Shown here in pieces: positions 17,696 to 38,992 of a DNA stretch of 42,337 bases; within the stretch, counting starts at the first letter, position 1; each line of letters begins with the position of its first letter. Source of the stretch: a virus. The notes under the pieces are model-generated. The model ran no database searches. It worked only from the letters and a program-made list of their open reading frames with translations, and was not told where the DNA came from. Location of the stretch: the IMG/VR virus record IMGVR_UViG_3300025151_000088, positions 1-42,337 of that record; one strand, 5' to 3'. Both the position numbers and the translations under genes were made by a program.

Positions 17696-18150
17696 TGGGT
17701 TGGTACAGCTCGGTAAGTCGTAATATAAATGAAATACCAGCGGCTATAAAATACTTTGAAGATGAGCTTACAACTGCTAGAGCAGAGTGTAAACTTGTTG
17801 GAAATGTTGAAAAACAAGCATCAATGATGCCTGGTATTGTAGAACATCGTTTTAATCAATTGCAAGAAATTGAAGCTATACTTGAATATTTAAATATTGA
17901 GCTACGTAGATTGCGTAGCTCATTTTTTAAGAAGTATCTTGAAAACTATCAACGTGCTTTAAGCAGTAGAGATGTTGAAAAGTACGTTGACGGTGAAGCA
18001 GATGTAGTTGACTATGAAAAGATCATAAACGAATTTGCATTAATACGTAATAAATGGTTAGGAATACTTAAAGCACTTGACCAAAAACAGTGGCAAATTA
18101 CAAATATTGTAAAACTCAGAGTTGCAGGAATGGAAGACGCAACGTTGTAA
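17695..18150 (+). CDS. uvsY: UvsY recombination mediator
   Basis: UvsY loads UvsX onto gp32-coated ssDNA. The 151-residue, all-helical protein is near T4 UvsY in length (137). It shows the family pattern: a central basic helix (YLNIELRRLRSSFFKKYLENYQRALSSRDVEKYV), a middle segment, and a C-terminal WQITNIVKLRVAGMED that parallels the T4 end IKHIQDMRAFEAG. Its genetic setting after uvsX supports the call. The start overlaps the stop of the acidic gene. Confidence 0.8.
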   Translation: MGWYSSVSRNINEIPAAIKYFEDELTTARAECKLVGNVEKQASMMPGIVEHRFNQLQEIEAILEYLNIELRRLRSSFFKKYLENYQRALSSRDVEKYVDGEADVVDYEKIINEFALIRNKWLGILKALDQKQWQITNIVKLRVAGMEDATL

Positions 18151-18157
18151 ATACTGT

Positions 18158-18886
18158 ATGACTTTAACAGTAATACTTCCTGCTGCAGGAAAAGGCACAA
18201 GATTAAACTTGCCTTATCCTAAAGAAATATTAAGACTAGATAAACATCAAGCATTAATCGATTATAGTTTTGACTGGTTTAAAGACTATGACAGAAATAG
18301 CGTAGATTTTGTTGTAGTTATAAATGAACTTAAAACTGACATAGTTGGATATTTGTCTAAATATAAACACAAATATAATATCGCTTTTGTATACCAAAAT
18401 CCATTAGAAAGAGAATATACAGGTGCAATAAAAAGTGCCTATCAATGGTTTGGTGAAGATAACGTTGTTTTACTACCTGACACAATTTTGAAACTACGTG
18501 GCACAGAAGATTTATATACACAAGTAAAAGATAAATTAGAAAATAATGAATTTGTATTCTTTTACAAAAAAGAAAAAGATCCAGCAATGTTATCTACAAA
18601 AGGTGCATTGCAAATGGAAAATAATATTGTAAAATTCTATGAAGACAAGCCACAGACTGACTTCACAAAATTTAATGCATATTGGTGTAGCTTTGCATTT
18701 AAAGCAAACTCTTTTATGCCAGCGATAGAGTATATGGAAAAAAGCACACTGAAGAAAAAAGTTGATAGTAGTAAAATGATATATACACCATTTTATAACA
18801 CTGAAGGAATAGAAGTAGAAGATTACATAGACTTAGGTACTTGGGGCGAAATCCGTAGACTGTTATCTGAATACCAGGAAGAATAA
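18158..18886 (+). CDS. Sugar-phosphate nucleotidyltransferase
   Basis: The 242-residue protein begins TVILPAAGKGTRLNLPYPKEIL, the signature loop and Lys of the GT-A-fold nucleotidylyltransferases that make NDP-sugars from sugar phosphates and NTP. VVLLPDTIL near 108-116 matches the metal-binding strand, and DYIDLGTW near the C-terminus matches the family. The sugar and nucleotide cannot be told. Start: ATG 18158, four bases after a TAAATA that contains the uvsY stop. An upstream in-frame start at 18122 would overlap uvsY heavily and disrupt the N-terminal strand. It opens the polysaccharide island and is TAATG-coupled to the next gene. Confidence 0.8.
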   Translation: MTLTVILPAAGKGTRLNLPYPKEILRLDKHQALIDYSFDWFKDYDRNSVDFVVVINELKTDIVGYLSKYKHKYNIAFVYQNPLEREYTGAIKSAYQWFGEDNVVLLPDTILKLRGTEDLYTQVKDKLENNEFVFFYKKEKDPAMLSTKGALQMENNIVKFYEDKPQTDFTKFNAYWCSFAFKANSFMPAIEYMEKSTLKKKVDSSKMIYTPFYNTEGIEVEDYIDLGTWGEIRRLLSEYQEE

Positions 18887-19812
18887 TGTATTTTTATGTA
18901 AGTGACAAAGAACACAATAGATACAGTTTTAGATCAAGAGGTACTTTGTTGCTTGAGAATATGAATAACATAAACAACGGACTAATAACTGATATAGCAG
19001 ACATACAATCAAATGATAAAAGATTGTTTGTTTTTGGCAAAAAATTTACTAATAATATTTTAGATAATTTAATAGAAAAAAATATAAAATTTATTTGTGA
19101 TATTTCTGATTACAAATTTTTCAAAAATGAAACCCGTGAATTATACACTCGAGCTTCAAAACATTGTTCTTGTTTTGTTGCAACTTGTAAATATCTTGCA
19201 AAACAAGTAGAAATATTATTTGATAAAAAATGTTATGTAATCGAAGATTTAACTGAACGCACCAAGACTAAACCTATAAAAAAAGTATTTGAGAAAAATG
19301 ATACTGTGCATTTAGTATGTTATGGCGCAAGAAAAAATTTACATAAAATTCCATTTGATAATATAAAAGCAACTTTAGAACTTGTACATCCTAAAATTAA
19401 ATTAGATGTAATAACAAATAAAAATAAAGACGATCCTGATTGGTGGGAGGATTGGAGTTTTGACAAACAAGAAAATTTAGTAAACAAATGTGATGCTATA
19501 TTACTTCCTATTTTATACAACGAAAAAATATCTAAATTTGTAAAAAGTAAAGGAAACAATAGACCTGTCGATGCTATACAACAAGGAAAGTTTGTAATTA
19601 CTCAAAATTATATTCCTAGTTATGCAGATTTAAAAAATTATATGTGGGTGGGAAATCTTACAAAAGGTTTTGAATATTTTGTTAATAATCCAAATGAAGT
19701 TTATCAAAAAGTTTTAGAAGGACAGGCGCATATCACTAAGTACTATGCACCTACTGTAACAGCAGAAAAATGGTTACAATTAGAAAGGACAATTAATGAA
19801 AAAAGTACATAA
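18886..19812 (+). CDS. Probable glycosyltransferase (GT-B-like)
   Basis: The 308-residue protein has a two-lobe layout suggestive of GT-B enzymes. The N-terminal half has alternating strands (KFICDISDYKF, SCFVATCKYLAKQVE, CYVIEDLTER). The second half begins HLVCYGARKNLHKIP and contains CDAILLPILYNE and RPVDAIQQGKFVITQNYIPSY, reminiscent of the donor-binding region where a conserved acid and a glycine-rich turn sit. I see no diagnostic family motif. It sits between a nucleotidyltransferase and an FkbM methyltransferase with overlaps on both sides, which supports a glycan role. It is markedly AT-rich and Lys/Asn-rich. Confidence 0.6.
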   Translation: MYFYVSDKEHNRYSFRSRGTLLLENMNNINNGLITDIADIQSNDKRLFVFGKKFTNNILDNLIEKNIKFICDISDYKFFKNETRELYTRASKHCSCFVATCKYLAKQVEILFDKKCYVIEDLTERTKTKPIKKVFEKNDTVHLVCYGARKNLHKIPFDNIKATLELVHPKIKLDVITNKNKDDPDWWEDWSFDKQENLVNKCDAILLPILYNEKISKFVKSKGNNRPVDAIQQGKFVITQNYIPSYADLKNYMWVGNLTKGFEYFVNNPNEVYQKVLEGQAHITKYYAPTVTAEKWLQLERTINEKST

Positions 19813-20416
19813 CTATTTTTTGCCTGATTCTGATATTCATTTTGAACGTATGATTAACAAACGTATTGCTCAAGGAGGGCCACCTGAATATCAAGATGAC
19901 GTTAGAGATGAAGCATATAAGTATGTAAATGATTTTGATATTTGTGTTGATGTAGGAGCAAATGTAGGATTATGGACAGTTCCGTTATCCAAAGAATTTA
20001 ATAAAGTTATTGCATTTGAACCTATGCAACAGGTATATGAATGCTTATTAGAAAATACAAAAGAATTAAACAATGTAATATTGAATAATTTCGCTTTAGG
20101 AAGCGAATCTAAAAATTTGAATATGGTTTTTAATCCTGAAAACACTGGTAATAGTTATATAGACGGTACCCCAGGAAATATTAAAGTAAAAAAATTAGAC
20201 GATAGTTTTATGCCTAAATTCAGTTTAATAAAAATTGATTGTGAACGTTATGAACTAGAAGTATTAAAAGGTGGTGTACAAACATTATTAAAGTATAAAC
20301 CAATTGTAATTGTTGAACAGCATCCGGATACAGAAGAATGTGCAGGTAATTTTTTAAGAGAATTAGGAGCCAAAGAATTGAGTAATGTAAGGAAAGATTA
20401 TATATTTGGATGGTAA
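19796..20416 (+). CDS. FkbM-family methyltransferase
   Basis: The 206-residue protein has the SAM-binding motif VDVGANVGLWT at 51-61, VIAFEPMQQVYECL near 74, ALGSES, and the FkbM-type SLIKIDCERYELEVLKGG segment followed by IVIVEQHP. FkbM-family enzymes O-methylate sugars and polyketides, and in polysaccharide loci they cap or decorate glycans. The ATG overlaps the previous gene by 17 bases and has an AAAGGA upstream. The end overlaps the next gene's TTG start. Confidence 0.85.
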   Translation: MKKVHNYFLPDSDIHFERMINKRIAQGGPPEYQDDVRDEAYKYVNDFDICVDVGANVGLWTVPLSKEFNKVIAFEPMQQVYECLLENTKELNNVILNNFALGSESKNLNMVFNPENTGNSYIDGTPGNIKVKKLDDSFMPKFSLIKIDCERYELEVLKGGVQTLLKYKPIVIVEQHPDTEECAGNFLRELGAKELSNVRKDYIFGW

Positions 20417-21176
20417 AATAGTTTTAGTAACAGGTGGATTTGACCCTTTACACAGTGGACATATTGGATATTTTAAGGCGGCTAGAAAACTAGGAGATAA
20501 ACTGGTAGTTGGTGTTAATAGCGATGAATGGCTTGTTCGTAAAAAAGGAAAGCCTTTTATGTGTTTTGAAGAACGTTGTTCAATCATTCGTGCATTAGAA
20601 ATGGTAGACGATGTCATTGGTTTTTCTGATGATGACGACACAGCTAATCACGCAATCTTTCAAGTACAAAGTACACACAGTGGCAAAGTAATATTTGCTA
20701 ACGGTGGTGATAGATCTAAAACAAATATTCCTGAAATGAAATTTACAAATGTAGAATTTGCATTTGGTGTAGGAGGCGAAAATAAAGCAAACAGTAGTAG
20801 TTGGATACTAGATGAATGGAAGACACAAAAAACAATACGGGATTGGGGCTATTGGAGAGTTTTAGATGATAAAAACACTGTAAAGGTAAAAGAACTTGTG
20901 ATAAATCCAGGTTGTAGTTTAAGTGATCAAAAACACTACAAAAGAAATGAGCATTGGTATATACTGCAAGGCGCAATGAAAATGGATATTGAACATACTG
21001 ATATAATTTCAACAAACACAGGCAGAGACGAAACAATAATATTAAAACAACACCAAAAGATAATTATCAAAAGAGAGGATTGGCATAGAGCATACAATCC
21101 GTTTGATGAACCGTGTCACATATTAGAAATACAATATGGAACAGAATGTAAGGAAGAAGATATTGAGCGAAGATAA
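20406..21176 (+). CDS. Fusion of HldE/TagD-like nucleotidyltransferase and cupin
   Basis: The first 125 residues form a HIGH-type nucleotidylyltransferase: GGFDPLHSGHI at 10-20, VVGVNSDEWLVRKKG at 34-48, and FEERCSIIRALEMVDDV. This is closest in pattern to the C-terminal domain of HldE (ADP-heptose synthesis) or to glycerol-3-phosphate cytidylyltransferases. Residues about 147-245 form a cupin like that of mannose-6-phosphate isomerase: WGYWRVL, VNPGC-type turn, H177, H183, YILQGAMKMDI, WHRAYNPFDEPCHILEIQYG. Start: TTG at 20406, because the nearby ATG runs into a stop. AAGGA lies at 20389-20393. The fusion may couple sugar isomerisation and activation, as in bifunctional mannose-1-phosphate enzymes. 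Confidence 0.8.
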   Translation: MDGKIVLVTGGFDPLHSGHIGYFKAARKLGDKLVVGVNSDEWLVRKKGKPFMCFEERCSIIRALEMVDDVIGFSDDDDTANHAIFQVQSTHSGKVIFANGGDRSKTNIPEMKFTNVEFAFGVGGENKANSSSWILDEWKTQKTIRDWGYWRVLDDKNTVKVKELVINPGCSLSDQKHYKRNEHWYILQGAMKMDIEHTDIISTNTGRDETIILKQHQKIIIKREDWHRAYNPFDEPCHILEIQYGTECKEEDIERR

Positions 21177-22005
21177 CGAAGAAGTAGAACCATTAAAGGT
21201 TTATGTAGGCTGGGACAGTAGAGAAGACATAGCTTTCCAAGTTTGCAAACAAAGTATTATTGAAAATGCAAGTGTGCCAGTAAAAGTGATACCTTTGAAA
21301 CAAGATTCACTACGCAAAAAAGATCTATATTGGAGAGCAGTAGATGCTTTAGCAAGTACAGAATTTACTTTTACACGGTTTTTGGTTCCTAAATGCAATA
21401 ACTTTGAAGGATGGGCATTATTCATAGATTGCGATTTTGTATTTTTAGACGATGTAAAAAAGATATTTGATCAAGCAGATCCAAAATATTCTATTATGTG
21501 TGCTCAACACGATTATACACCTAAAGAAAAAACAAAAATGGACGGAATGACACAACACATTTATCCACGAAAAAACTGGTCTAGTATGATGTTAATCAAT
21601 TGCGGAAGTTACACAAATTCTGTGCTTACTCCTGAACTTGTAAACGATCCTATGAAAGGAGGAGCATACTTCCATAGATTTAGTTGGGTACCTGATGCAG
21701 AGATAGGTGAATTAAGCCACGAATGGAATTGGCTTGTTGGTTGGTACAAAGAACCAAAAGACGGTAAACCAAAAGCATTACACTACACAGAAGGAGGCCC
21801 GTGGTTTCTTGAATGCGAAGATTGCGAATATGCAGCGGAATGGTTCAAGTACAAAGCTAACTATTACGAACAACTTGCAATTAGAAATTACAATAAAACT
21901 GAATCTTTAATGCTAAAAAGAGATAAAGATCAAGAACGTTTTGAACGTGCAAAAATTGATACCAGCGGCGAAAACATAATTCTTCCTTCCAAAAAAAAAA
22001 GTTAG
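21163..22005 (+). CDS. Glycosyltransferase with DxD motif (GT-A, GT8-like)
   Basis: The protein reads KVYVGWDSREDIAFQVCKQSI at its start and has the metal/nucleotide-sugar motif LFIDCDF (DCD near residues 89-91), then MLINCGSYTNSVLTPELVND and HYTEGGPWF. This is the layout of retaining GT-A enzymes near GT8. TTG at 21163 has AGGAAG six bases upstream. The ATG at 21136 lacks a ribosome site, so 280 residues is preferred over 289. It overlaps the previous gene. The end is unusual: the frame closes right after a run of ten A, while the −1 frame continues open into the next gene. Confidence 0.78.
   Translation: MSEDNEEVEPLKVYVGWDSREDIAFQVCKQSIIENASVPVKVIPLKQDSLRKKDLYWRAVDALASTEFTFTRFLVPKCNNFEGWALFIDCDFVFLDDVKKIFDQADPKYSIMCAQHDYTPKEKTKMDGMTQHIYPRKNWSSMMLINCGSYTNSVLTPELVNDPMKGGAYFHRFSWVPDAEIGELSHEWNWLVGWYKEPKDGKPKALHYTEGGPWFLECEDCEYAAEWFKYKANYYEQLAIRNYNKTESLMLKRDKDQERFERAKIDTSGENIILPSKKKS
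21991..22000 (+). other. A10 run: candidate frameshift or slippage site
   Basis: Ten consecutive A occur just before the TAG stop of the glycosyltransferase. A −1 shift (or one extra A) avoids the stop and reads KLVKDFIDYLKDPDQNYY and onward, in frame, into the gene starting at 22080. That would produce one fused protein. Polymerase slippage, ribosomal frameshifting and a sequencing error are all possible. Confidence 0.45.
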
Positions 22006-22079
22006 TTAAAGACTTTATTGATTATCTAAAAGATCCGGATCAGAATTATTATAAAAATGGAACTATAGAGGAGCAATTA

Positions 22080-22928
22080 ATGGCATTACGTGAACCAAGA
22101 GTAGCAGCTATTTGGCCAGGCCCGATAGTCGACGGAGGAACAGATCCGTATAGAAAAAATTTATTATTTGATGAATACTTAGAAGCATTAATATTAGGTG
22201 CTCCGTCTGGTAGATTAGTTGAATGGGATCAAGTGAAAGACGAAAATATTCCTTTGCTAATTAGAGGTTTAGGAAAACACAGTCAATTAGCTATCAAACA
22301 TTGTATGAAAACAAAACGTGAAATGTATTATGTTGACAGCGGATATATGGGCAATGAAAGAACTAAAAGTAAAGTATATCATAGAATTACTAAGAATAAT
22401 TTACAAAACCTAGGACCTATAGTAGACCGTCCAAATGATAGACTATCCCGTATTAGTTGGAAGTACAAAAAGTTTCATCCAAATAAAAGAAACATATTAA
22501 TTTGCCCACCAAGCGAAAAAGTAATGAAATTTTGGGGACAACCATTACCGCAAGAATGGACAAAGAATGTTGTTACTGAATTAAAAAAATATACAGACAG
22601 ACCAATTACAGTAAGGTTAAAACCAAAGCGTAACGAAAGAATTGGTGATAAAAATATTATCCACGCATTAGAAGATGATGTGCATTGTGTTGTAACATAT
22701 AACAGTATAGCAGCTACAGAAGCATTACTTAACGGTATACCTGCTATTGCATTAGGTCCAAATGCAGCATCTGTGTTGTGTAATAGTAAATTAGAAGATA
22801 TAGAAAATCCTAATACTTTTGATAAAGAAACCATTGAAGGATATGCGGCACATTTAAGTTATTGCCAATTTACAAAACCTGAAATGCAAAGTGGAAAAGC
22901 GTGGCAGATTTTAAATGAAGGTAGTTAG
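22080..22928 (+). CDS. Capsule/Kdo-transferase-like protein, paralog 1
   Basis: The 282-residue protein begins MALREPRVAAIWPGPIVDGG. Its C-terminal half is GT-B-like: NILICPPSEKVMKFWGQPLPQEW, ITVRLKPKRNER, then CVVTYNSIAATEALLNGIPAIALGPNAAS. The last stretch is typical of KpsC/KpsS and related capsule transferases, where a nucleotide-sugar site follows a Ser/Asn-rich turn and an 'ALLNGIP' helix. The usual R-x-HP is here RLKP. GAGGAG at 22069-22074 supports the ATG, but the frame is open upstream to the A10 run. Two relatives follow nearby (22915 and 24712). With kdsA and kdsB in the same genome, Kdo transfer is a reasonable guess. Confidence 0.6.
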   Translation: MALREPRVAAIWPGPIVDGGTDPYRKNLLFDEYLEALILGAPSGRLVEWDQVKDENIPLLIRGLGKHSQLAIKHCMKTKREMYYVDSGYMGNERTKSKVYHRITKNNLQNLGPIVDRPNDRLSRISWKYKKFHPNKRNILICPPSEKVMKFWGQPLPQEWTKNVVTELKKYTDRPITVRLKPKRNERIGDKNIIHALEDDVHCVVTYNSIAATEALLNGIPAIALGPNAASVLCNSKLEDIENPNTFDKETIEGYAAHLSYCQFTKPEMQSGKAWQILNEGS

Positions 22929-23847
22929 TTATCTTTCAAGTGTGCCTAAAAACAACACTAATAAACAAAAAGAAGAACTGATAGAAAAATTCTATAAAGG
23001 CGTATTGCGTTGCGGAGATTCTTCTATGATTCAAAAAGATTATTTTCCAATAGATTGCGATGCGGCACTTATACAAGGTTGGGTATATGCAGATACTACT
23101 CCAAGTCATTTGTCACTTAGAAAAAAAGTTATAGACTACCAAAAAAGTAGAAACAAATATACAATTGTAGCAGATGCAAATCTTTTTTTATATCAAAACA
23201 AAACAAATCCACACGGATATCTAAGATATAGTTTAAATGGAGTTTTTCCTAACACAGGCATATATTGTGACGATATCATTGATACAACTAGATGGGATAG
23301 AATTAGTACAAATACAGGAATAAGACTAGAAGATATGAAACCAACTGGCGGACATATTTTATTACTTTTACAAAGGCAAGGTGGATGGAGTATGGGAGGT
23401 GAAAGTATCGTTGATTGGGCATTAGGTACAATTAATAAAATTAGAAAAACTGGCTGTGATAGATTAATTAAAATACGCCCTCACCCAGGCTGTAAAAAAT
23501 CAACAAAAATGTTTTTGCCAAAAGTAAATCCTTTTAGAAAAATGCCAAAAGTAATGCTATGCGATCCTACAAATAGATTGGAAAATGATTTGAACGATTG
23601 TTATGCAGTTATAAACAAAAATAGTAGTGGCATTGTAGGGCCTATTATAAAAGGATATAATGCATTTGTAACCGATCCAGAAAATAGCCAATGTGCAGAA
23701 GTATCAAATCATAATTTAAAGTCTATAGTTGAACCACGAACCTTTGATAGATTAAAATGGTTACAGCGTATAAGTATGTTTCATTGGAGTTTTCAAGAAT
23801 TAGAAAACGGACAGTGTTGGAAACATATGCGTAATTACTGCCAATAA
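22915..23847 (+). CDS. Capsule/Kdo-transferase-like protein, paralog 2
   Basis: The 310-residue protein shares the layout of the preceding gene: an N-terminal domain with LIQGWVYADTTPSHLSLRKKVIDYQ, then HILLLLQRQGGWSMGG, LIKIRPHPGCKKSTK (R-x-HP motif), and the Ser-rich turn CYAVINKNSSGIVGPIIKGYNAFVTDP. The R-P-H-P motif and the NSSG turn are as in CDP-glycerol or KpsC/S-type transferases. The ATG overlaps the previous stop by 14 bases. The 3' end overlaps the convergent glycosyltransferase by 13 bases. The donor and acceptor are unknown. Confidence 0.6.
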   Translation: MKVVSYLSSVPKNNTNKQKEELIEKFYKGVLRCGDSSMIQKDYFPIDCDAALIQGWVYADTTPSHLSLRKKVIDYQKSRNKYTIVADANLFLYQNKTNPHGYLRYSLNGVFPNTGIYCDDIIDTTRWDRISTNTGIRLEDMKPTGGHILLLLQRQGGWSMGGESIVDWALGTINKIRKTGCDRLIKIRPHPGCKKSTKMFLPKVNPFRKMPKVMLCDPTNRLENDLNDCYAVINKNSSGIVGPIIKGYNAFVTDPENSQCAEVSNHNLKSIVEPRTFDRLKWLQRISMFHWSFQELENGQCWKHMRNYCQ

Positions 23848-24674
23848 CTTTCTTTTCGATTTACCATAATATCTTTTGCAAGACTTTTTCCTGTATTTTT
23901 TCTATCGCCTTTTAAATGATCAATCCATTTTCCCAAGACAGTGTTAATTAATGGATGCCCTCCACCTCCTGTCTTAGCTTCTTTTAAATACATCTCGGCA
24001 CTATAATCTAATACATCAGGACGCAACACTTTCATATTTTCTAGCACGTGACCAAACACATAACTATCGTGCCATTCCTCTAATTTAAATATTCCATTTT
24101 CTGCATCTTCATACATTCTTTCAAACTCTTGCAAGAAAGTTGTACAGGCTCCGTGGTTTAAGTTCATTCCATAAAACCCACATTCTGGCCACGTTTGTGA
24201 TCCCTTGCCTCTACCCACGTAAGTCAACCATTTATCGTCTGGAAGTAGTTTTTTAAAATCTTTGTAACTCCATTCACTGTGAACAAATGTATCAGCATCC
24301 ATCCAAACGCACCAACCATTACTACGTTCACAAGCATCAAATACAGCATAAACTTTATTAGCAAAACGTATGGCGTGCCATTTAAATTCTTTGTGCCAGT
24401 CTCTTGGACGTCTAGCTTTGATATCTTCCGGAGGTATACCGTTTGCTTTTGGAACATCTTTCCAGCGTTCTTTAAATGCATTTAATTTATGTAATTCTTT
24501 TACAGCATCTAAGATAATAATATTACTTGCATTTACTTTTGGCTTACAGTTTTCTGCATAAACAAGCAATTTTATTTTTTGATCAACTTTATCTGCAAAG
24601 CTATCTATAAATCTTTGACCATATTTGTCTAATCCTGGCTGATGAAATGTAGTTACCACAGTTATGTCTGTCAT
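23835..24674 (-). CDS. Glycosyltransferase with DAD motif (GT-A)
   Basis: The 279-residue protein starts MTDITVVTTFHQPGLDKYG and has a clear metal-binding WMDADTFVHSEW (DAD at 126-128), preceded by KWHAIRFANKVYAVFDAC, a helix common in GT-A enzymes. GFYGMNLNHGACTTFLQEF and EEWHDSYVF follow in the acceptor half. I recognise the type from marine phage genomes, but substrates are unknown. AAGGA lies seven bases before the ATG. It runs against its neighbours, making it the only minus-strand gene in the island and separately transcribed from the 24.68 kb divergent region. Confidence 0.75.
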   Translation of the reverse strand: MTDITVVTTFHQPGLDKYGQRFIDSFADKVDQKIKLLVYAENCKPKVNASNIIILDAVKELHKLNAFKERWKDVPKANGIPPEDIKARRPRDWHKEFKWHAIRFANKVYAVFDACERSNGWCVWMDADTFVHSEWSYKDFKKLLPDDKWLTYVGRGKGSQTWPECGFYGMNLNHGACTTFLQEFERMYEDAENGIFKLEEWHDSYVFGHVLENMKVLRPDVLDYSAEMYLKEAKTGGGGHPLINTVLGKWIDHLKGDRKNTGKSLAKDIMVNRKESYWQ

Positions 24675-24711
24675 TTATAAATCCTTGTAAATAGTACTGG
24701 AGTATTTAAGT
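24675..24711. promoter_or_regulatory. Divergent intergenic region with late-like boxes
   Basis: This short gap must hold promoters for the minus-strand glycosyltransferase and for the gene at 24712. TTTATAAAT (24674-24682) is near-palindromic and resembles a late box on either strand. TGTAAATA (24686-24693) lies before GGAG (24699-24702) on the plus strand. Assignments are tentative. Confidence 0.35.
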
Positions 24712-25563
24712 ATGAAATTTAAACTGTGGAAAGAATATGGTGCAATGAATAGTAAGCCTGTGTTTGAGGCATTTGAACACAGTCTTGTACGAGCAGGACA
24801 CACAATTAATTCAAATGACAGTGTAAATGATGCTGATGTAAATGTTATTTGGAGTGTATTATTCAATGGTAGAATGTCACCAAATAAACATATATGGAAC
24901 TCTTGTAGGAAAAAGAATAAGCCAGTAATTGTTTTAGAAGTAGGTGGTATCAAAAGAGGAACCACTTGGAAAGTAGGATTAAATGGTATTAATAGGGACG
25001 CTGAGTTTGGTAGTAATAATATGGATAGTTCTAGAGCTAGTGAACAGGGGTTATTACTAAAACCTTGGAAGTCAGATGGACAATTTATTTTGATTTGTGG
25101 ACAGCACGAGAAGAGTTTACAATGGGAAAATATGCCACGTATGAGTAAATGGCTAATGAGTATTATTGATGAAATACAATCTTATACAGATTTGCCTATT
25201 ATATTTAGATCTCACCCGAGATGTAGATTAGAGTATATTGAAACACAATATAAAAATGTTTATAGAGACGACCCAAGACATATTGACGGAACTTATGATG
25301 ATTACAATTTAAATTTCAACAAAGCATATGCTGTAGTAAATTGGAGTAGTAATCCTGGGCCACAAGCCGCTATAGCCGGTGTTCCTGTGTTTACAGGTCC
25401 AAGTAGTCTCGCTTGGCCAGTTGCTAATAAAAGTCTGTCGCAAATTAATAATCCAATAAAACCTGATAGACAGCAATGGCTTAATGATTATGCTTGGACT
25501 GAATTTACAATAGAAGAAATAGCAAGCGGATTACCTTTAAATAGATTGACTAAACACCTTTAA
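24712..25563 (+). CDS. Capsule/Kdo-transferase-like protein, paralog 3
   Basis: The 283-residue protein has the same plan as the genes at 22080 and 22915: ADVNVIWSVLFNGRMSPNKHIW, PVIVLEVGGIKRG, FILICGQHEKSLQWENMPRMSKWL, IFRSHPRCRLEYIE (R-x-HP) and AYAVVNWSSNPGPQAAIAGVPVFTGPSSLAWPVAN. The last segment, a Ser/Asn turn followed by an Ala-rich helix and a short loop, matches the donor site of KpsC/S-like GT-B proteins. It has its own ribosome site. Three divergent copies close together suggest successive linkage steps or alternative acceptors. Confidence 0.62.
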   Translation: MKFKLWKEYGAMNSKPVFEAFEHSLVRAGHTINSNDSVNDADVNVIWSVLFNGRMSPNKHIWNSCRKKNKPVIVLEVGGIKRGTTWKVGLNGINRDAEFGSNNMDSSRASEQGLLLKPWKSDGQFILICGQHEKSLQWENMPRMSKWLMSIIDEIQSYTDLPIIFRSHPRCRLEYIETQYKNVYRDDPRHIDGTYDDYNLNFNKAYAVVNWSSNPGPQAAIAGVPVFTGPSSLAWPVANKSLSQINNPIKPDRQQWLNDYAWTEFTIEEIASGLPLNRLTKHL

Positions 25564-29674: not shown

Positions 29675-29927
29675 AAAAGAACTTGCTGGCGAAGCATTAA
29701 TTTATGAAAGAGCAAACGGGGTTGTGTTTGCTAAGTTTAGAGACCCACCAAAAAATCAAAAATACACAAGGTGGGAAATAGGACGAGATGTAACAGAAGC
29801 ACCTATATTAGATTATGCTTTATGGGCACATATTAACGATCTTGCAAAAGATTATCCTACACTTCAGAAACAAGTTGACAAGTTGTTAGATGTGTATTAT
29901 ATTATAAAAGATGGAGACAAGAAATGA
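29661..29927 (+). CDS. Small phage protein of unknown function
   Basis: The 88-residue protein contains IYERANGVVFAKFRDPPKNQKYTRWEIGRD and ends in a helical stretch (YPTLQKQVDKLLDVYYIIKDGDKK). I have seen this general type in phages but know no role. It overlaps both the methyltransferase and kdsA (ATGA), so it is translated with the Kdo genes. Confidence 0.7.
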   Translation: MRPTKKELAGEALIYERANGVVFAKFRDPPKNQKYTRWEIGRDVTEAPILDYALWAHINDLAKDYPTLQKQVDKLLDVYYIIKDGDKK

Positions 29928-30682
29928 TTATTATTGCAGGGCCGTGCCAACACGAATCATTAGAACAAAGTTTAACTATTGCAAATCATTGTAAAAAAGT
30001 TTGCGACAAGCACGGTATAGATTATTACTTCAAAGCAAGTTTTGATAAAGCGAATAGAACATCTATTCACGGTAAAAGAGGTCCTGGTATATCTGAAACC
30101 TTGCCAGACTTTCAAAAAATAAAACAAGAAGGTTTTAAAATACTTACTGATGTGCATACAGAAGGACACATTAGTAGATGCAAAAATGTAGTTGATGTTT
30201 TACAAATACCAGCTTTTTTATGTAGACAAACTGACTTGATTGTTTCAGCTTGTAAAACTAACTGCATTGTTAATATTAAAAAAGGACAATTTTTAGCGCC
30301 TTGGGATGTAAAAGGTATTTTGAGTAAGTGTACAGATGCTAAAGAAGTCTGGATAACAGAAAGAGGTACAAGTTTTGGATATAATACTTTGGTTAATGAT
30401 TTTACTGGAATGCAGTATATTATGCACAATATTACTAATGATCTGGTGTTTGATGTCACGCACTCTGTCCAGGCGCCAGGTGGACAAGGTGATTCAAGTG
30501 GGGGCAATCGCGACTATATACCAGGCCTTGCTCGCTCAGCCTCTGCTATGGGCGTTAGTAATTTCTTTTTAGAAGTGCATCAAGATCCTGATAATGCTCC
30601 TAGCGATGGTCCAAATATGTTATGTTTGCAAGACTTTGAACAGATAGTAGACGACATAGTAAGATATAATTACAGAGGATAA
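29924..30682 (+). CDS. kdsA: KdsA, 3-deoxy-8-phosphooctulonate (Kdo-8-P) synthase
   Basis: KdsA condenses phosphoenolpyruvate with arabinose-5-phosphate to Kdo-8-phosphate, the first committed step of Kdo formation. The 252-residue protein carries nearly every family signature: FKASFDKANRTSIH, LQIPAFLCRQTDLI, NIKKGQFLAPWD, TERGTSFGYNTLV, DVTHSVQAPGGQGDSSGG and EVHQDPDNAPSDGPNM. It has Cys8 in AGPC, which marks the metal-dependent class. It is a little shorter than E. coli KdsA (284). No Kdo-8-P phosphatase is seen in the window. It lies directly before kdsB. Confidence 0.95.
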   Translation: MIIIAGPCQHESLEQSLTIANHCKKVCDKHGIDYYFKASFDKANRTSIHGKRGPGISETLPDFQKIKQEGFKILTDVHTEGHISRCKNVVDVLQIPAFLCRQTDLIVSACKTNCIVNIKKGQFLAPWDVKGILSKCTDAKEVWITERGTSFGYNTLVNDFTGMQYIMHNITNDLVFDVTHSVQAPGGQGDSSGGNRDYIPGLARSASAMGVSNFFLEVHQDPDNAPSDGPNMLCLQDFEQIVDDIVRYNYRG

Positions 30683-30686
30683 TACA

Positions 30687-31352
30687 ATGACAACAGCAAT
30701 ACTAATACCAGCAAGATATGCCAGTACTAGATTTCCTGGTAAAATGATGGCAAAACTAAACGGTGTGCCATTAGTAGAACACGTTTATAATCGTTGTGCT
30801 GGTACTGGATTAGATACATATGTACTTACAGATTCTCAAGAAGTGTATAATTATATAGGTGGCGGTAAGTGTATTATGACTCAAGAAGCAGAAAACGGAA
30901 CCGAACGTTGTATGCAAGTAATTGATGAAAAACTACAGTACGATAGATATATAAATGTACAAGGCGATATGCCAGACATAACTTCAAAAATAATACTTGC
31001 AGTTGAAGATGAATTACACAGAAGTGATGTAGCAACAGCGTATACACGAATGGATTTTAACTTGCGAAATGATCCTAACAGTGTTAAAATGATACACAAT
31101 AGAGGTAGAGCTCATTGGTTCTTACGTGCTAGTTTAGAATACGGTGATCATCATTTAGGTATATATGGATATAATAGAGAAGCAAAAGCTATGTACAGTG
31201 CAAGTACAAAATTTGTAGAAGAAGATATTGAAAAACTAGAACAACTACGTTGGATACAAAATGGTGTACGTATTGGTGTAGTAGAAGTTGAGTTTGATGG
31301 TATAGAAATCAACACGCCAGAGGATTTAGAAAAGTGGCAAACAAGGAACTAG
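30687..31352 (+). CDS. kdsB: KdsB, CMP-Kdo synthetase
   Basis: KdsB activates Kdo with CTP to CMP-Kdo, the donor for Kdo transferases. The 221-residue protein begins AILIPARYASTRFPGKMMAKLNGVPLVEHVYNRC. It has TERCMQVI and the metal-binding INVQGDMPDI, and ends with the KdsB-type DIEKLEQLRWIQNGVRIGVVEV. The usual GDEP is GDMP here, and it is shorter than E. coli KdsB (248), missing residues after the 'NDPNSVKM' segment. It follows kdsA by four bases. Specificity for Kdo itself rather than a related acid sugar is inferred from the pairing. Confidence 0.88.
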   Translation: MTTAILIPARYASTRFPGKMMAKLNGVPLVEHVYNRCAGTGLDTYVLTDSQEVYNYIGGGKCIMTQEAENGTERCMQVIDEKLQYDRYINVQGDMPDITSKIILAVEDELHRSDVATAYTRMDFNLRNDPNSVKMIHNRGRAHWFLRASLEYGDHHLGIYGYNREAKAMYSASTKFVEEDIEKLEQLRWIQNGVRIGVVEVEFDGIEINTPEDLEKWQTRN

Positions 31353-31804
31353 ACTTATTCAAGGAACTTATTCCAAGCATCGATATGGGCTTCAAAGAAC
31401 TGTATGATGCTGCCGGTGAAGATGGCAAGAAAGATATAAAACTTGACTTATGGAACTTGAACCGTTATATTAGCAGTGTAAAAGGCAACTATGAAAAGAC
31501 TGCACTTGCAGTGTTTAAGGTTAACGAATACTACAACAAAAACTGGAATGTGCTTGGCGGCACTAATCACGTTAAGTTACAATGGCAACTATTATGTGTT
31601 GCTGGCAAAACAGGAAAAAAACAATTCCATCCTTGGATTGGACTTAAAAAGAAAAAAGATGACAGTAGCAAAGCAGTGAAGTTGCTGGCACAAATATATC
31701 CAGAAATGAAAATGGATGAGGTAGAAACACTTGCTAGAATATCTACAAAAAAAGAAATCAAAGAACTTGCTCAAGAACACGGTTACGAAAAAGTTGACAT
31801 CTAG
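31334..31804 (+). CDS. gp62-like protein (clamp-loader small subunit related?)
   Basis: The 156-residue helical protein has LFKELIPSIDMGFKELYD, LNRYISSVKG, VNEYYNKNW, KLQWQLLCVAG, KKQFHPWIGLKKK and a C-terminal ETLARISTKKEIKELAQEHG. I remember this type in T4-like marine phages, and the order of segments parallels marine gp62, the small clamp-loader subunit. The match is loose and gp44 is not in the window. GTG at 31334 is used, inside the end of kdsB. The link to kdsB is only by overlap, so replication functions resume here. Confidence 0.5.
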   Translation: MANKELDLFKELIPSIDMGFKELYDAAGEDGKKDIKLDLWNLNRYISSVKGNYEKTALAVFKVNEYYNKNWNVLGGTNHVKLQWQLLCVAGKTGKKQFHPWIGLKKKKDDSSKAVKLLAQIYPEMKMDEVETLARISTKKEIKELAQEHGYEKVDI

Positions 31805-32477
31805 TAAATTTACGTGCGAATATTGTGGTAAAAGTTATGTAAAAGAAAGCACATTGTTAGCTCACGTGTGCGAACCAAAAAGACGTTGGCTACAAAAAGA
31901 TGAAAAACGTGTGCAATTAGGATTATATGCATTCCAAAGATTTTACAAATTAAGTGCAGGACATAAGAAAGAAAAAACATATGAAGAATTTGTTAAGTCA
32001 TCGTTTTACAATGCTTTTGTTAAGTTTGGCAGTTTTGTTAACAACGTTAGGCCTTTGTATCCTGACAAGTATATCGATTATGTTGTAACTAGTAATGTAA
32101 AACTTGACCATTGGTGTCGAGATGAAATGTATGAGAAATATGCAATTGAACTAATACGTAAAGAAGGAGTTGAAACTGCGCTTGAACGATCAATAAATAC
32201 TATGCTTGATTGGGCAAAAGAAAAAGAAAGTACTTATAACCATTATTTTTTATATGCAAGTGCAAATAGAATAACCTGGGATATAAAAGATGGAAAAATA
32301 TCACCTTGGTTACTTTTAAATTGTGATAGTGGTTTAAAAGTACTGCAAAATTTTAACACAGAACAACTTAATATGGTTAATGCAGTATTAGATCCTAAAC
32401 ATTGGAGTATTAGATTTAAAAGACAACCAAAAGACGTTGAGCTTGTAAAACAGGTAGTTAAAGAGGCAAATATGTAA
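31794..32477 (+). CDS. Zinc-finger phage protein, function unknown
   Basis: The protein starts with a C2H-type finger: FTCEYCGKSYVKESTLLAHVC, followed by EPKRRWLQKDEKRVQLGLYAFQRFYKL. The remainder (LDHWCRDEMYEKYAIELIRKEGVETALERSINTMLDW, ISPWLLLNCDSGLKVLQ) is helical and of a kind I recall from T4-like marine phages next to the gp62-like and mini-DnaE genes. TTG at 31794, overlapping the previous stop, gives 227 residues beginning MTSSKFTC. An ATG at 31731 would add an unrelated 21-residue extension and overlap 74 bases. It overlaps the next gene (TAATG). Confidence 0.65.
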   Translation: MTSSKFTCEYCGKSYVKESTLLAHVCEPKRRWLQKDEKRVQLGLYAFQRFYKLSAGHKKEKTYEEFVKSSFYNAFVKFGSFVNNVRPLYPDKYIDYVVTSNVKLDHWCRDEMYEKYAIELIRKEGVETALERSINTMLDWAKEKESTYNHYFLYASANRITWDIKDGKISPWLLLNCDSGLKVLQNFNTEQLNMVNAVLDPKHWSIRFKRQPKDVELVKQVVKEANM

Positions 32478-33034
32478 TGCCAGATATTGATATCGATTTT
32501 GCTGACAGAAATATTATTTTAGATAAAATAAAACACAGAGTAGCAAAATTAGACACAGGTAAAAAACACAATACAGGAGTTTATGTAACTGAATGTCCTC
32601 ATAACCCTGTAGATAATCTATCAACAATAGATTATAAAGTAGCAGAAGATCGAGGTTACTTTAAGTTAGATTTTTTGAATGTATCTATTTACAGTGAAGT
32701 AGAAAACGAAAAACATTTACAACAACTAATGGAGAAAGAACCACTATGGGAACTATTGGAGCACAAAGACTTCGTAGATCAGCTGTTTCATCTCAGCGGG
32801 CACGAAGATCTATTAAAAGTATTGAAACCGCAATCGGTAGAACAATTGGCGGCAACACTAGCGATAATAAGGCCAGCAAAGAGACATTTGCTGAAAAGCA
32901 ATTGGAATTTGATTTTACAAGAGGTTTGGAAAAAACCTACAGACGGTAGCTATTATTTTAAAAAAGCACACGCATTTGCATATGCTATTAGTGTAATTGT
33001 ACATATGAATTTGTTATGTGAAAAGTATACCTAA
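32477..33034 (+). CDS. Miniature DNA polymerase III alpha (DnaE)-like protein
   Basis: In 185 residues this protein reproduces, in order, several DnaE core motifs: PDIDIDF at 2-8 (catalytic aspartates equivalent to D401/D403 in E. coli), KKHNTGVYV at 29-37 (like RHAAGVV), YFKLDFLNV at 61-69 (third catalytic Asp, like KFDFLGL), IIRPAKRHLL at 130-139 (like LYRPGP), and KKAHAFAYA at 162-170 (like the SHAAAYA fingers helix). The upstream palm strand with RGSAAGS is missing and there is no PHP or OB domain. I recall similar short proteins in marine T4-like phages. Activity is unknown. It overlaps the zinc-finger gene and convergently the next gene. Confidence 0.7.
   Translation: MPDIDIDFADRNIILDKIKHRVAKLDTGKKHNTGVYVTECPHNPVDNLSTIDYKVAEDRGYFKLDFLNVSIYSEVENEKHLQQLMEKEPLWELLEHKDFVDQLFHLSGHEDLLKVLKPQSVEQLAATLAIIRPAKRHLLKSNWNLILQEVWKKPTDGSYYFKKAHAFAYAISVIVHMNLLCEKYT
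32746..32949 (+). CDS. Possible overprinted Arg-rich small protein
   Basis: In a second frame inside the mini-DnaE gene, an ATG opens 67 codons encoding MGTIGAQRLRRSAVSSQRAR and onward to a helical KASKETFAEKQLEFDFTRGL. The product is basic in its first half. The surrounding DNA is locally less AT-rich than the rest of the host gene, as expected if two frames are constrained. A GGAG lies upstream, 11 bases after which the ATG begins. No homologue is known to me. It could be a chance open frame. Confidence 0.3.
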   Translation: MGTIGAQRLRRSAVSSQRARRSIKSIETAIGRTIGGNTSDNKASKETFAEKQLEFDFTRGLEKTYRR

Positions 33035-34596: not shown

Positions 34597-35574
34597 ATGA
34601 GCATCGTGTCTGATATCCTGACCCTATATCTACCTGCAAAGCGTAAAACTACACCTAGTGGGTGGACCAGTTTCAATGCGCCTTGTTGTGTGCATAACAA
34701 TGAAAATGCAGATACAAGAGGACGTGGCGGTGTTATATATGAAGGAGATTTAGTAAGTTATCATTGCTTCAATTGTGGCTTCAAAGCAAGTTGGCAACCG
34801 GGTCGTAATCTAAGTTACAAGTTTAAAAAATTATTAGAATGGTTAAATGTATCTGATGCTGATATCACAAAACTAGCACTAGATGTAATGCGTGAGAACG
34901 AAGGTGTTGAAGTGCAAAAACATCAAGTAGAGTTGCCTACATTTGGCACAGTGCATTTGCCAGAAGACAGTGTACGCATTGCAGATATTGAAAACTTTGA
35001 CAAGCACAGTATGGCAGTGTTAGAGTATATGGCTACACGTAACTTAAACTTTGATGATACAGATTACTATTGGTCGTCACAATTAGGATACAGAGAAAGA
35101 CTTATTATACCCTTTAAATATGAGGGGCGTATAGTTGGATATACAGCCCGTACAGTAGGGGAAAACAAACCAAAGTACCTAACTGACTCACAGCCTGGCT
35201 TTGTTTATGGATTAGACGATCAAGGTCCTAATAAAGCATTTACATTGTTATGCGAAGGTCCACTAGATGCAATACACATAGAAGGGTGTGCATTGACTGG
35301 AAGTGATATAGGAGATGCACAAGCATTGTTATTAAACAGGTTAGGCAAAGATGTGTATGTAATACCTGATAGAGATAAAGCAGGTAGTAAACTAGTCGAA
35401 CAAGCTATTGATAGAGGTTGGGGAGTTAGTTTACCAGACTGGGATGATGATTTGAAAGATATAGGTGAATGTGTTGCTCGTCACGGTAGGCTATATACAT
35501 TATACAAAATTGTTGCGAGTGCAGAAACTTCGCCATTAAAAATAAGACTAAAGGCAAAAAAATGGTTTACATAA
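34597..35574 (+). CDS. 61: DNA primase gp61
   Basis: gp61 makes RNA primers and works with the gp41 helicase. The 325-residue protein has an N-terminal zinc-binding domain (Cys30/Cys31, His33 ... Cys57-x2-Cys60 in HCFNCGF). It also has a TOPRIM domain with Glu220-x3-Asp224 (LCEGPLDAIHIEG) and PDRDKAG at 257-263. Both are needed for primase activity in this family. Length is near T4 gp61 (342). The perfect sigma70 promoter just upstream puts it under early control, and tiny genes overlap its 3' end. Confidence 0.93.
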   Translation: MSIVSDILTLYLPAKRKTTPSGWTSFNAPCCVHNNENADTRGRGGVIYEGDLVSYHCFNCGFKASWQPGRNLSYKFKKLLEWLNVSDADITKLALDVMRENEGVEVQKHQVELPTFGTVHLPEDSVRIADIENFDKHSMAVLEYMATRNLNFDDTDYYWSSQLGYRERLIIPFKYEGRIVGYTARTVGENKPKYLTDSQPGFVYGLDDQGPNKAFTLLCEGPLDAIHIEGCALTGSDIGDAQALLLNRLGKDVYVIPDRDKAGSKLVEQAIDRGWGVSLPDWDDDLKDIGECVARHGRLYTLYKIVASAETSPLKIRLKAKKWFT

Positions 35575-35851: not shown

Positions 35852-35957
35852 ACTTATAATATATAACATTGTGTTTTGGTTTGTTTATGGTTACATTTGT
35901 AGTTTACCAGCAAAGTGGGTACAGTATACTATTGATAATTATGACAAGGTAAAATGA
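35844..35957 (+). CDS. Tiny membrane protein (37 aa), third of three
   Basis: The frame encodes MIELIIYNIVFWFVYGYICS followed by a short polar tail (LPAKWVQYTIDNYDKVK). The first 20 residues are a probable transmembrane segment. AGGAG (35830-35834) lies nine bases before the ATG. The stop overlaps the carbamoyltransferase start as ATGA, so translation is coupled. Confidence 0.6.
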   Translation: MIELIIYNIVFWFVYGYICSLPAKWVQYTIDNYDKVK

Positions 35958-37459
35958 TAACCTGGGGTATAAGTGCAAATAGCCACGATGCATCTTTAGC
36001 AGTTTTTAACCATCAACCTTGGAATCAAGGTAGTATGGAATTATTGTATGCTAGTCATAGTGAACGCTACAGTGGCGTCAAAAATGATCCACATTTAAAT
36101 GATAAATTAATACAGTACGGAAGACAATGGGGAGAACCTGATGAAATTATTTGGTACGAAAAACCCTTTGTCAAGACACTCAGACAAATCAAAGCAGGAC
36201 AAGGACTCAAGTACTTTTTTAAAAACAATATCCGTAGCTATCTTCGACGGTACGATTTATCTGTTCCTGTTCGTTTTGTTTCTCATCATTTTGCCCATGG
36301 TGCTGCCGGTTATTATAGTTCTCCTTTTGATAAAGCCTGTGTTGTTGTTATCGACAGCATTGGAGAGTTTGAAACACTCACTATCTGGAACGCCAGAGAA
36401 AATAAACTCAAAAAACAGTATACTCAATCGTACCCTCACTCCGTTGGATTATGGTACTCGGCGTTCACACAAAGAATAGGACTTAAACCTCAAGAAGACG
36501 AATATATTCTTATGGGTATGGCTGCATACGGTGATCCAATGCGCTTTTACAAAGATATAATGGACGAATTTATTGATATAGTAGACGCTGATAATAGTCC
36601 ACGTATTAAAATTAAACATAACCTTCATAGAGGGTGCTTATGGTGGAGACCAGATTTAAATAGCCCACAGGATTTGATGGACATTGCAGCGGCTGTTCAA
36701 GCTATATATGAACAAATTTTACAAACAATCTCTGGATGGGCTAGAAGGCAATCACCATCGGGTAACCTAGTTTTGATGGGAGGGTGTGCATTGAATTGTG
36801 CCGCAAACAGTGTTATATACAAAGATTGGGATAACGTATGGATTATGCCAAACCCGGGTGATTCTGGAAATGCGGTGGGTGCAGTATTAGGCTATTATGA
36901 AACCAAAATAAATTGGCCGGGTCCATACTTAGGCCATAACATAGAAGGAGAATATCCTGTTGAAGAAGTTTTACAAGAATTACTTACTAACGGTATTTGC
37001 GGTGTTGCTAATGGCCGGGCAGAGTTTGGCCCTAGAGCTCTTGGACACAGATCCTTACTTGCAGATCCCAGAGGTGAAGATATCAAAGACAGAGTTAATA
37101 ATATTAAGAAGAGGCAACTTTTTAGACCTTTCGCCCCAGCTTGTCTCGCAGAAGATACAGACAAATATTTTACCGGGCCCACAGGACCATATATGCAATA
37201 TGTATCAAATTGCACAGATCCTGGACTACCTGCAATCACGCACGGGGACGGCACCAGTAGGGTACAGACAGTTTCTAAATATGAAAGCCAAGGCTTTAGA
37301 AAACTGCTAGAACGTTGGAAAGAAGAGACTGGTTGTTCAGTGTTGTTAAATACAAGTCTAAATATCAAAGGCAAGCCTATTGTAAATACTGAACAAGATG
37401 CTAATGATTTTGCAAAATATTATGGAGTAAAAGTTTGTACGGCTGCTGTAAAAACGTAG
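35954..37459 (+). CDS. NodU/CmcH-family carbamoyltransferase
   Basis: The 501-residue protein is an O-carbamoyltransferase of the NodU/TobZ/CmcH type, which moves a carbamoyl group from carbamoyl phosphate through carbamoyl-AMP to a sugar or natural product. Family marks are ISANSHDASLAVF at the start, SHHFAHGAAGYY at 110-121, DEYILMGMAAYGDP, MGGCALNCAANS, and the C-terminal EFGPRALGHRSLLADPR and LLNTSLNIKGKPIV. Such genes are known in marine T4-like phages. Linked to the Kdo genes elsewhere in the window, it may decorate surface or virion glycan. It follows three tiny genes in coupled order. Confidence 0.93.
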   Translation: MITWGISANSHDASLAVFNHQPWNQGSMELLYASHSERYSGVKNDPHLNDKLIQYGRQWGEPDEIIWYEKPFVKTLRQIKAGQGLKYFFKNNIRSYLRRYDLSVPVRFVSHHFAHGAAGYYSSPFDKACVVVIDSIGEFETLTIWNARENKLKKQYTQSYPHSVGLWYSAFTQRIGLKPQEDEYILMGMAAYGDPMRFYKDIMDEFIDIVDADNSPRIKIKHNLHRGCLWWRPDLNSPQDLMDIAAAVQAIYEQILQTISGWARRQSPSGNLVLMGGCALNCAANSVIYKDWDNVWIMPNPGDSGNAVGAVLGYYETKINWPGPYLGHNIEGEYPVEEVLQELLTNGICGVANGRAEFGPRALGHRSLLADPRGEDIKDRVNNIKKRQLFRPFAPACLAEDTDKYFTGPTGPYMQYVSNCTDPGLPAITHGDGTSRVQTVSKYESQGFRKLLERWKEETGCSVLLNTSLNIKGKPIVNTEQDANDFAKYYGVKVCTAAVKT

Positions 37460-37587
37460 TACAAGAAACACACGAACAAGTTATTAAAGTTGACAAGTTT
37501 ACATTTCGTGTTATAATTAGATATTGTAAAAGTTGTGGACAAGTTAAAGCACAGTCACATATAAAAGAAGAAAAAAATGGCAACTAG
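37435..37587 (+). CDS. Tiny zinc-ribbon-like protein (50 aa)
   Basis: A TTG at 37435, with GGAG (37424-37427) seven bases upstream, opens 50 codons encoding MYGCCKNVVQETHEQVIKVD, then a strand region and RYCKSCGQVKAQSH. Two Cys pairs (Cys4-Cys5 and Cys31-x2-Cys34) fit a small zinc ribbon. It overlaps the carbamoyltransferase end by 25 bases and gp41 by 11, filling the gap exactly. TTG starts are common in this genome. I know no homologue. Confidence 0.5.
   Translation: MYGCCKNVVQETHEQVIKVDKFTFRVIIRYCKSCGQVKAQSHIKEEKNGN
37490..37517 (+). promoter_or_regulatory. Candidate sigma70 promoter for gp41
   Basis: TTGACA (37490-37495) and TATAAT (37512-37517) are separated by 16 bases, both perfect hexamers. 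They lie inside the tiny zinc-ribbon frame, 60 bases before gp41. They are likely real given their quality, but the overlap with coding sequence leaves some doubt. Confidence 0.55.
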
Positions 37588-38992
37588 ACAAAATACAGAT
37601 TATGGTTATGATATACAAAAAGTATATTTAGAAATGTTTATGACAGACGCAGAAAGTTTTGTGCGATGTCAAGGTGTATTTGATCCACAAACATTTGATA
37701 GACGTTTACAAGAGCCAGCAAAATTTGTAAAAGAGTATGTTGAAGAACATAATGCACTTCCTACATTTGATATGGTAAATGCGGCAACTGATGGTAATTT
37801 AAAAGATCCTGGGGCATTGCAAGAGAATCATTATGATTGGTTATTACAAGAGTTTGAAACATTTAGTAGACACAAAGCATTAGAATCGGCTATTCTTAAA
37901 AGTGCAGACTTACTTGAAAAAGGCGAGTATGGTCCAGTTGAAGACTTGGTTAAGAAAGCAGTACAGATTGGATTACAAAAAGATTTAGGTACAGACTATT
38001 GGGCTGATCCAAGAGCTAGACTTGAAGGTATCAAAGATAGTAACGGACAAGTAAGTACAGGGTGGCCAGGACTAGATAAGAAACTATTTGGAGGATTCAA
38101 CAGAGGCGAATTGAATATCTTTGCAGGCGGATCAGGTAGTGGTAAGAGTTTGTTTTTGGCTAACTTAGGTGTTAACTGGTGCTTGGCTGGACTTAACGTA
38201 TTGTATTTGACTTTTGAACTTAGTGAAGCATTGGTTAGTATGCGTGTAGATAGTATGACTACAGATATTCCAAGCAGAGACATTTTTAAAAGCATTGATG
38301 ATGTTGAAATGAAAGTTAAAATGATTGGCAAGAAAGCAGGAGCATTCCAAGTCAAGTATATGCCAACTGGTAAAAACGCAAACGATTTACGTAGTTATAT
38401 CAAAGAATATGAAATCAAAACTGGTAAAAAACTAGATGTCATACTTGTAGATTATTTAGACTTAATGCATCCTATTGCTGCAAAAGTAAGTGCAGAGAAC
38501 TTGTTTGTTAAAGACAAATATGTATCAGAAGAATTACGTAACTTGGCTATGGAACTTAATACATTATTTGTAACAGCATCGCAGTTGAATAGAAGCAGTG
38601 TAGAAGAGATTGAGTTTGACCACAGCCACATATCGGGCGGTATATCTAAGATCAATACAGCAGATAACTTGATTGGTATCTTTACAAGTAGGGCTATGCG
38701 TGAACGTGGCAGATATCAAATACAACTTATGAAAACTAGAAGTAGTTCGGGTGTAGGACAAAAGATTGATTTGGAGTTTGATGTTGATAGTTTACGTATA
38801 CGTGATTTAGGCGAGGATGAAGAATACCAAGAGTTTCAAAAGCGTAAGTCAACTGTGTTTGATCAACTCAAGCGTACAAATACACCAGCAGTTGAAAAAG
38901 AAGATCCAAGCGAAGGCGATACTGTGGGTAAGATAAAAGCAGAAGCAAGCACAGTAGAACTACGAAACTTTTTAAACAAACTTGGTTCATAA
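37577..38992 (+). CDS. 41: Replicative DNA helicase gp41
   Basis: gp41 is the DnaB-type hexameric helicase of the T4 replisome. The 471-residue protein has an N-terminal helical domain (about 1-140) and a RecA-like motor with Walker A GGSGSGKS at 184-191. It also has LDVILVDYLDLMHP (Walker B), ASQLNRSSVEE and QIQLMKTRSSSGVG, the DnaB-family motifs H3 and H4. It lies close to the primase, its working partner, separated only by the tiny genes and the carbamoyltransferase. Confidence 0.95.
   Translation: MATRQNTDYGYDIQKVYLEMFMTDAESFVRCQGVFDPQTFDRRLQEPAKFVKEYVEEHNALPTFDMVNAATDGNLKDPGALQENHYDWLLQEFETFSRHKALESAILKSADLLEKGEYGPVEDLVKKAVQIGLQKDLGTDYWADPRARLEGIKDSNGQVSTGWPGLDKKLFGGFNRGELNIFAGGSGSGKSLFLANLGVNWCLAGLNVLYLTFELSEALVSMRVDSMTTDIPSRDIFKSIDDVEMKVKMIGKKAGAFQVKYMPTGKNANDLRSYIKEYEIKTGKKLDVILVDYLDLMHPIAAKVSAENLFVKDKYVSEELRNLAMELNTLFVTASQLNRSSVEEIEFDHSHISGGISKINTADNLIGIFTSRAMRERGRYQIQLMKTRSSSGVGQKIDLEFDVDSLRIRDLGEDEEYQEFQKRKSTVFDQLKRTNTPAVEKEDPSEGDTVGKIKAEASTVELRNFLNKLGS

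Follow-up and report, generated by a model that had tools for sequence, protein, structure and literature searches.

A miniature DnaE gene in an environmental phage genome fragment as the likely C-terminal half of a split minimal Pol III alpha

Split minimal forms of the DNA polymerase III (Pol III) alpha subunit have been described in group 2.2 jumbo phages by Iyer et al. 2021, who suggested that such forms could serve as a model of the Pol III ancestor (PMC7824862). Earlier, the CBB genome paper reported a truncated Pol III alpha of 172 aa (PMC5259590), and a Pol III alpha subunit was also noted in the paper on Atu_ph07 (PMC6102473). No biochemical or other laboratory study of the split minimal Pol III alpha was found in the literature searched. 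The gene analyzed here, referred to as mini DnaE, is assigned to an already known kind because Iyer et al. 2021 described the split minimal Pol III alpha; judging from its sequence, it belongs to this published, uncharacterised group.

The gene lies in the 42,337-base virus record IMGVR_UViG_3300025151_000088, analyzed over its full length and referred to below as the window. The sequence-only reading had recognized 5 motifs following the DnaE order, and all of them are present in a 185-aa ORF (Table 1), the first being equivalent to the E. coli DnaE motif that begins at residue 400. The protein is matched by PHROG 11778, annotated as "DNA polymerase", at 4.8e-61 over aa 3–183 and by the full-length DnaE family PHROG 405 at 8.5e-7, while Pfam yielded only a sub-threshold match to the finger domain (E 0.032). 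Given these 2 PHROG matches and the presence of mini DnaE relatives in at least 569 IMG/VR stretches, the resemblance to DnaE is not due to chance. Homologues identified with tblastn are encoded by jumbo phages of Pseudomonas, Agrobacterium, Sinorhizobium, Salicola, Xanthomonas, Vibrio and enterobacteria. Cellular matches amounted to 13 hits in genome contigs, almost all of which carry MAG titles; they are probably misbinned phages.

Table 1. Positions in the window of the mini DnaE gene, its motifs and the neighboring genes
Feature	Coordinates	Strand	Evidence and remarks
Upstream ORF, C2H2 zinc-finger-like	31731..32477	+	PHROG 11058; start coordinate putative
Mini DnaE	32477..33034	+	185 aa, ATG to TAA; PHROG 11778, invariant residues, predicted fold
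PDIDIDF (aa 2–8)	32480..32500	+	Asp3/Asp5 = E. coli DnaE D401/D403; both D in 194/194
KKHNTGVYV, palm strand (aa 29–37)	32561..32587	+	E. coli GKHAGGVVI from residue 509; His31, Gly34 in 194/194
YFKLDFLN (aa 61–68)	32657..32680	+	Lys63, Asp65 = E. coli K553, D555; both in 194/194
IIRPAKRHLL, finger motif (aa 130–139)	32864..32893	+	E. coli FRPGP from 638; Arg132, Pro133 in 194/194
KKAHAFAYA, finger helix (aa 162–170)	32960..32986	+	E. coli FNKSHSAAYA from 756; His165, Tyr169 in 194/194
Convergent ORF, ~120 aa	33031..33396	-	PHROG 11637; adjoins mini DnaE
DNA primase	34597..35574	+	PHROG 47; conserved downstream neighbor
DnaB-like replicative helicase	37577..38992	+	PHROG 19; conserved downstream neighbor
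Compact PHP-less DnaE, 563 aa	39028..40719	+	PF07733 7.5e-42, PF17657 (finger domain) 1.3e-13; alignment with E. coli DnaE

Across 194 distinct, near-full-length relatives of the mini protein, residues D3, D5, D7, H31, G34, K63, D65, R132, P133, H165 and Y169 are unvarying, including the aspartates at positions 3, 5 and 65, which had been singled out as catalytic and could have proved variable. The DxD motif and third Asp characteristic of the C-family palm are thus all in place, as are the finger Arg and Lys/His motifs. We take the functional roles of the E. coli counterparts (D401, D403, H511, K553, D555, FRPGP and NKSH) to be established by C-family structures. The view of a very small, DnaE-derived protein that has kept its catalytic aspartates is borne out.

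The AlphaFold2 model of the mini protein, built from an alignment of 56 sequences, has a mean pLDDT of 92.9 and a pTM of 0.81. In a Foldseek search against the PDB, the best 12 matches, headed by 4iqj (3.7e-4), were all Pol III alpha or PolC, and their query TM-scores were moderate (0.38–0.50); the predicted fold is thus Pol III alpha-like rather than unrelated. A search of PDB sequences with the mini profile (hmmsearch) returned no chain at 0.01, and alignment of this profile to E. coli DnaE with hhalign was weak (9% probability); hence, the case for homology with DnaE is built on the motif order, PHROG 405 and the predicted fold. The PHP and OB parts and the RGSAAGS segment had been considered gone. 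Indeed, no PHP, thumb or OB domain was recognized in the mini chain by sequence, Pfam, alignment with E. coli DnaE or the AlphaFold2 model, and the GS motif is absent from the polypeptide; in relatives, however, the GS segment is still encoded, by a second gene. The stretch from D401 to H511, 110 residues in E. coli DnaE, is reduced to 28 in the mini protein, so that little or nothing of the thumb remains. Similarly, the stretch from R639 to H760 comprises 121 residues in E. coli DnaE vs 33 in the mini protein.

The second gene was recovered with PF07733, which in each of 4 complete phages matched a single ORF of ~170–180 aa covering only profile positions ~16–98. The corresponding family, PHROG 11127 (roughly 165–215 aa, hereafter the N-half), spans ~269–393 of E. 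coli DnaE when aligned to it and displays an unvarying GRGS; Pol III alpha is also the first match of its predicted fold, with lower confidence than for the mini protein. In the 80 closest IMG/VR relatives, the N-half ends at "...LDWREFLR", give or take 1 residue; the mini ORFs start at or just before "MPDIDIDF", equivalent to residue 399 of E. coli DnaE. The break between the 2 proteins therefore falls within the DnaE segment 394–399, with the N-half of a few distant relatives extending some residues past its usual end.

The 42-kb window contains no N-half gene and, since the gene is missing from this fragment, we infer from the relatives that it resides elsewhere in the genome of this phage. 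Relatives whose sequence is long enough to cover the corresponding region do carry the N-half; in 3 of them (G004, G006 and G021), it is located ~122 kb after and 226–231 kb before the mini gene on a presumed circle of ~350 kb. Neither the N-half nor a family-B polymerase was found on contigs such as G005 (262 kb), because these stop short of the N-half region. In the contigs examined, the N-half is accompanied by genes for a GroES-like protein (read from the sequence), a DnaQ-type exonuclease and the clamp loader gp44. For instance, positions 3595–6564 of contig L112 encode the N-half followed by a small conserved protein of PHROG 14844, GroES-like and MazG-like proteins (both recognized by eye), a DnaQ-type exonuclease and the clamp loader gp44.

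The 2 halves occur together. When 50,697 phage records were searched with the 121Q proteins, the mini query matched 90 and the N-half query 87, with mini and N-half matches, respectively, numbering 34 and 34 for Escherichia, 11 and 11 for Pseudomonas, 8 and 8 for Salmonella, 8 and 8 for Erwinia, and 11 and 10 for Klebsiella; the agreement was judged by genera and counts, and record by record only among the matches listed. The known mismatches are one 85.7-kb Klebsiella record and Alishewanella phage Slickus01, the N-half of which is diverged and was detected with a profile, so that both halves are present. Slickus01 is a complete circle of 141.6 kb carrying both halves and a family-B polymerase; thus, the system also occurs outside jumbo genomes. 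Both genes are also found on the long IMG/VR contigs G004, G006, G021, G063–G067, G072 and G073, of which G063–G067, G072 and G073 were retrieved by their mini gene. The distance matrices of the 2 proteins agree across 12 genomes (Mantel r = 0.82, 0/5000 permutations), which fits vertical co-inheritance, although shared phylogeny alone could yield such agreement.

In the window, the stop codon of the PHROG 11058 ORF overlaps the start of mini DnaE by 1 nt, so that the 2 genes are probably translationally coupled. PHROG 11058 also precedes the mini gene in Paride and 121Q, and its zinc-finger-like product is a candidate third component. The order mini gene, convergent ORF, primase and helicase is common to the window, Paride, 121Q, Phosso and Atu_ph07. 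With the mini gene beside the primase and helicase and the N-half near the DnaQ exonuclease and clamp loader, each half thus lies in a replication block. Several ORFs recognized by eye are interspersed with the replication genes of the window or flank them: KDO-8-phosphate synthase-like (29924–30682) and CMP-KDO synthetase-like (30687–31352) ORFs are adjacent to each other just upstream of the replication block, a 501-aa carbamoyltransferase-like ORF (NodU type; 35954–37459) separates the primase from the helicase, and sugar-nucleotide, methyltransferase and glycosyltransferase-like ORFs (18122–25563) are located between recombination and helicase genes. No family-B polymerase is encoded within the 42-kb window. 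Consistent with the earlier remark that T4-like phages normally rely on the unrelated gp43, phages related to the window do carry a family-B polymerase, present in the mini-bearing relatives G004, G006 and G021 and in 5 reference phages.

We consider it likely that the product of mini DnaE is the C-terminal half of a minimal family-C (Pol III alpha) core split into 2 chains, with the separate N-half as the partner, an idea already put forward by Iyer et al. 2021. The 2 proteins would probably join into one enzyme, with the GRGS loop of the first chain, encoded far from the mini gene and, in the relatives examined, near the DnaQ-type exonuclease and clamp loader, expected to grip the triphosphate. 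The second chain, the mini protein, would bring the 3 metal-binding aspartates and the finger Lys, Arg and His, so that upon assembly the GS loop and these residues would form a single active site. The predicted role is most likely catalytic. The pair has no PHP, thumb, OB or clamp-binding region, and a T4-type family-B polymerase is present alongside it; its probable role is therefore that of a second replisome polymerase of short range, acting, for example, in primer extension or gap filling. The mini protein would, most likely, be the metal-binding and finger half of this two-chain, thumb-less enzyme. More tentatively, the 2 halves may make up a thumb-less polymerase for primer extension, which would relieve the phage primase and then pass the primer on to the family-B enzyme. 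On this rather improbable scheme, the pair would correspond, in the phage, to the relay known for Pol alpha or B. subtilis DnaE, and the lineage of the window would have a third, complete PHP-less DnaE in addition.

The mini protein could instead be a pseudo-enzyme, a subunit with a structural or regulatory function in either the primase-helicase or the family-B polymerase, as would befit phages that already have such a polymerase and a gene placed among those for primase, helicase and virion proteins. However, a non-catalytic role would not need catalytic aspartates and nucleotide-site Lys, Arg and His that are invariant in 194 sequences; we thus regard this explanation as unlikely, and the structural subunit entertained in the sequence-only reading found no support in our analysis. 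The other role proposed there, that of a nucleotidyltransferase working alone, for example, in untemplated nucleotide addition or target modification, has little probability. Pol-beta-like nucleotidyltransferases can be small, which provides a precedent for the size, the metal-binding triad and finger residues are retained in all 194 relatives, and the mini model is predicted to fold confidently by itself. Nevertheless, the GS loop of the superfamily is absent from the mini chain and conserved in a co-occurring protein whose end meets the start of the mini protein. Because relatives encode the GS segment in that distant gene, solitary action is less likely than participation in a two-chain core.

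The window encodes a second DnaE, located directly after the helicase gene and 6 kb downstream of mini DnaE. This compact protein displays RGSAGSS, PDVDIDF, KHCGG and LKVDIL motifs, fingers and an OB-like tail but no PHP domain. Of the 47 contigs searched, namely the window and 46 others with the mini gene, 7 encode it, although some end before its expected position, and LR756508, a 484-kb phage record, encodes a 36%-identical compact DnaE and a family-B polymerase with neither split half. For these reasons, we classify the compact DnaE, by its sequence and distribution, as a separate, sporadic accessory polymerase. Its presence in only 7 of 47 contigs rules it out as a constant partner of the mini protein. 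Pairing of the mini protein with the compact DnaE rather than with an N-half in the lineage of the window is very improbable: all 11 compact-bearing contigs checked (42–155 kb) have the mini gene a few kb away, yet 40 of the 47 mini-bearing contigs show no compact gene (some stopping before its position), the compact protein possesses its own GS loop and 3 aspartates, and LR756508 has the compact gene without the mini gene. A scan for long contigs with both the compact DnaE and the N-half returned none longer than 91 kb, and no compact-bearing contig is long enough to reach the N-half region. Compact DnaEs are widespread in marine contigs, with 209 and 189 candidate stretches in 2 scans.

The two-chain reading of mini DnaE is relevant to what minimum of a replicative polymerase suffices for catalysis and to why viruses already equipped with a complete family-B replicase retain a second, bacterial-type active center split over 2 distant genes, and the invariant residues and clean break make the split-enzyme idea testable in a coliphage. 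Compared with bacterial Pol III alphas (E. coli DnaE, Taq 3e0d and M. tuberculosis 7pu7), the mini protein shares the motif order, the 3 aspartates, the finger Arg and Lys/His and the predicted fold, but its chain lacks the PHP, GS, thumb, OB and clamp-binding regions and is about one sixth as long. T4 gp43 is a different protein of unrelated fold, although relatives with the mini gene also have a polymerase of its family. The closest likeness is to the split minimal Pol III alpha of Iyer et al. 2021, with which the locus shares the C-terminal metal- and template-binding half as a separate protein (PHROG 11778, 4.8e-61) and, in the genomes of relatives, the distant partner gene and the family-B polymerase. 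The complementary break, the invariance over 194 sequences, the thumb loss and the co-occurrence counts are new here, as are the complete sub-jumbo genome with both halves and the extra compact DnaE. Thus, unlike the system described in 2021, the window represents an environmental relative with the partner outside the sequenced fragment and an additional compact DnaE, and unlike the jumbo phages of that study, its relative Slickus01 (141.6 kb) carries both halves below jumbo size.
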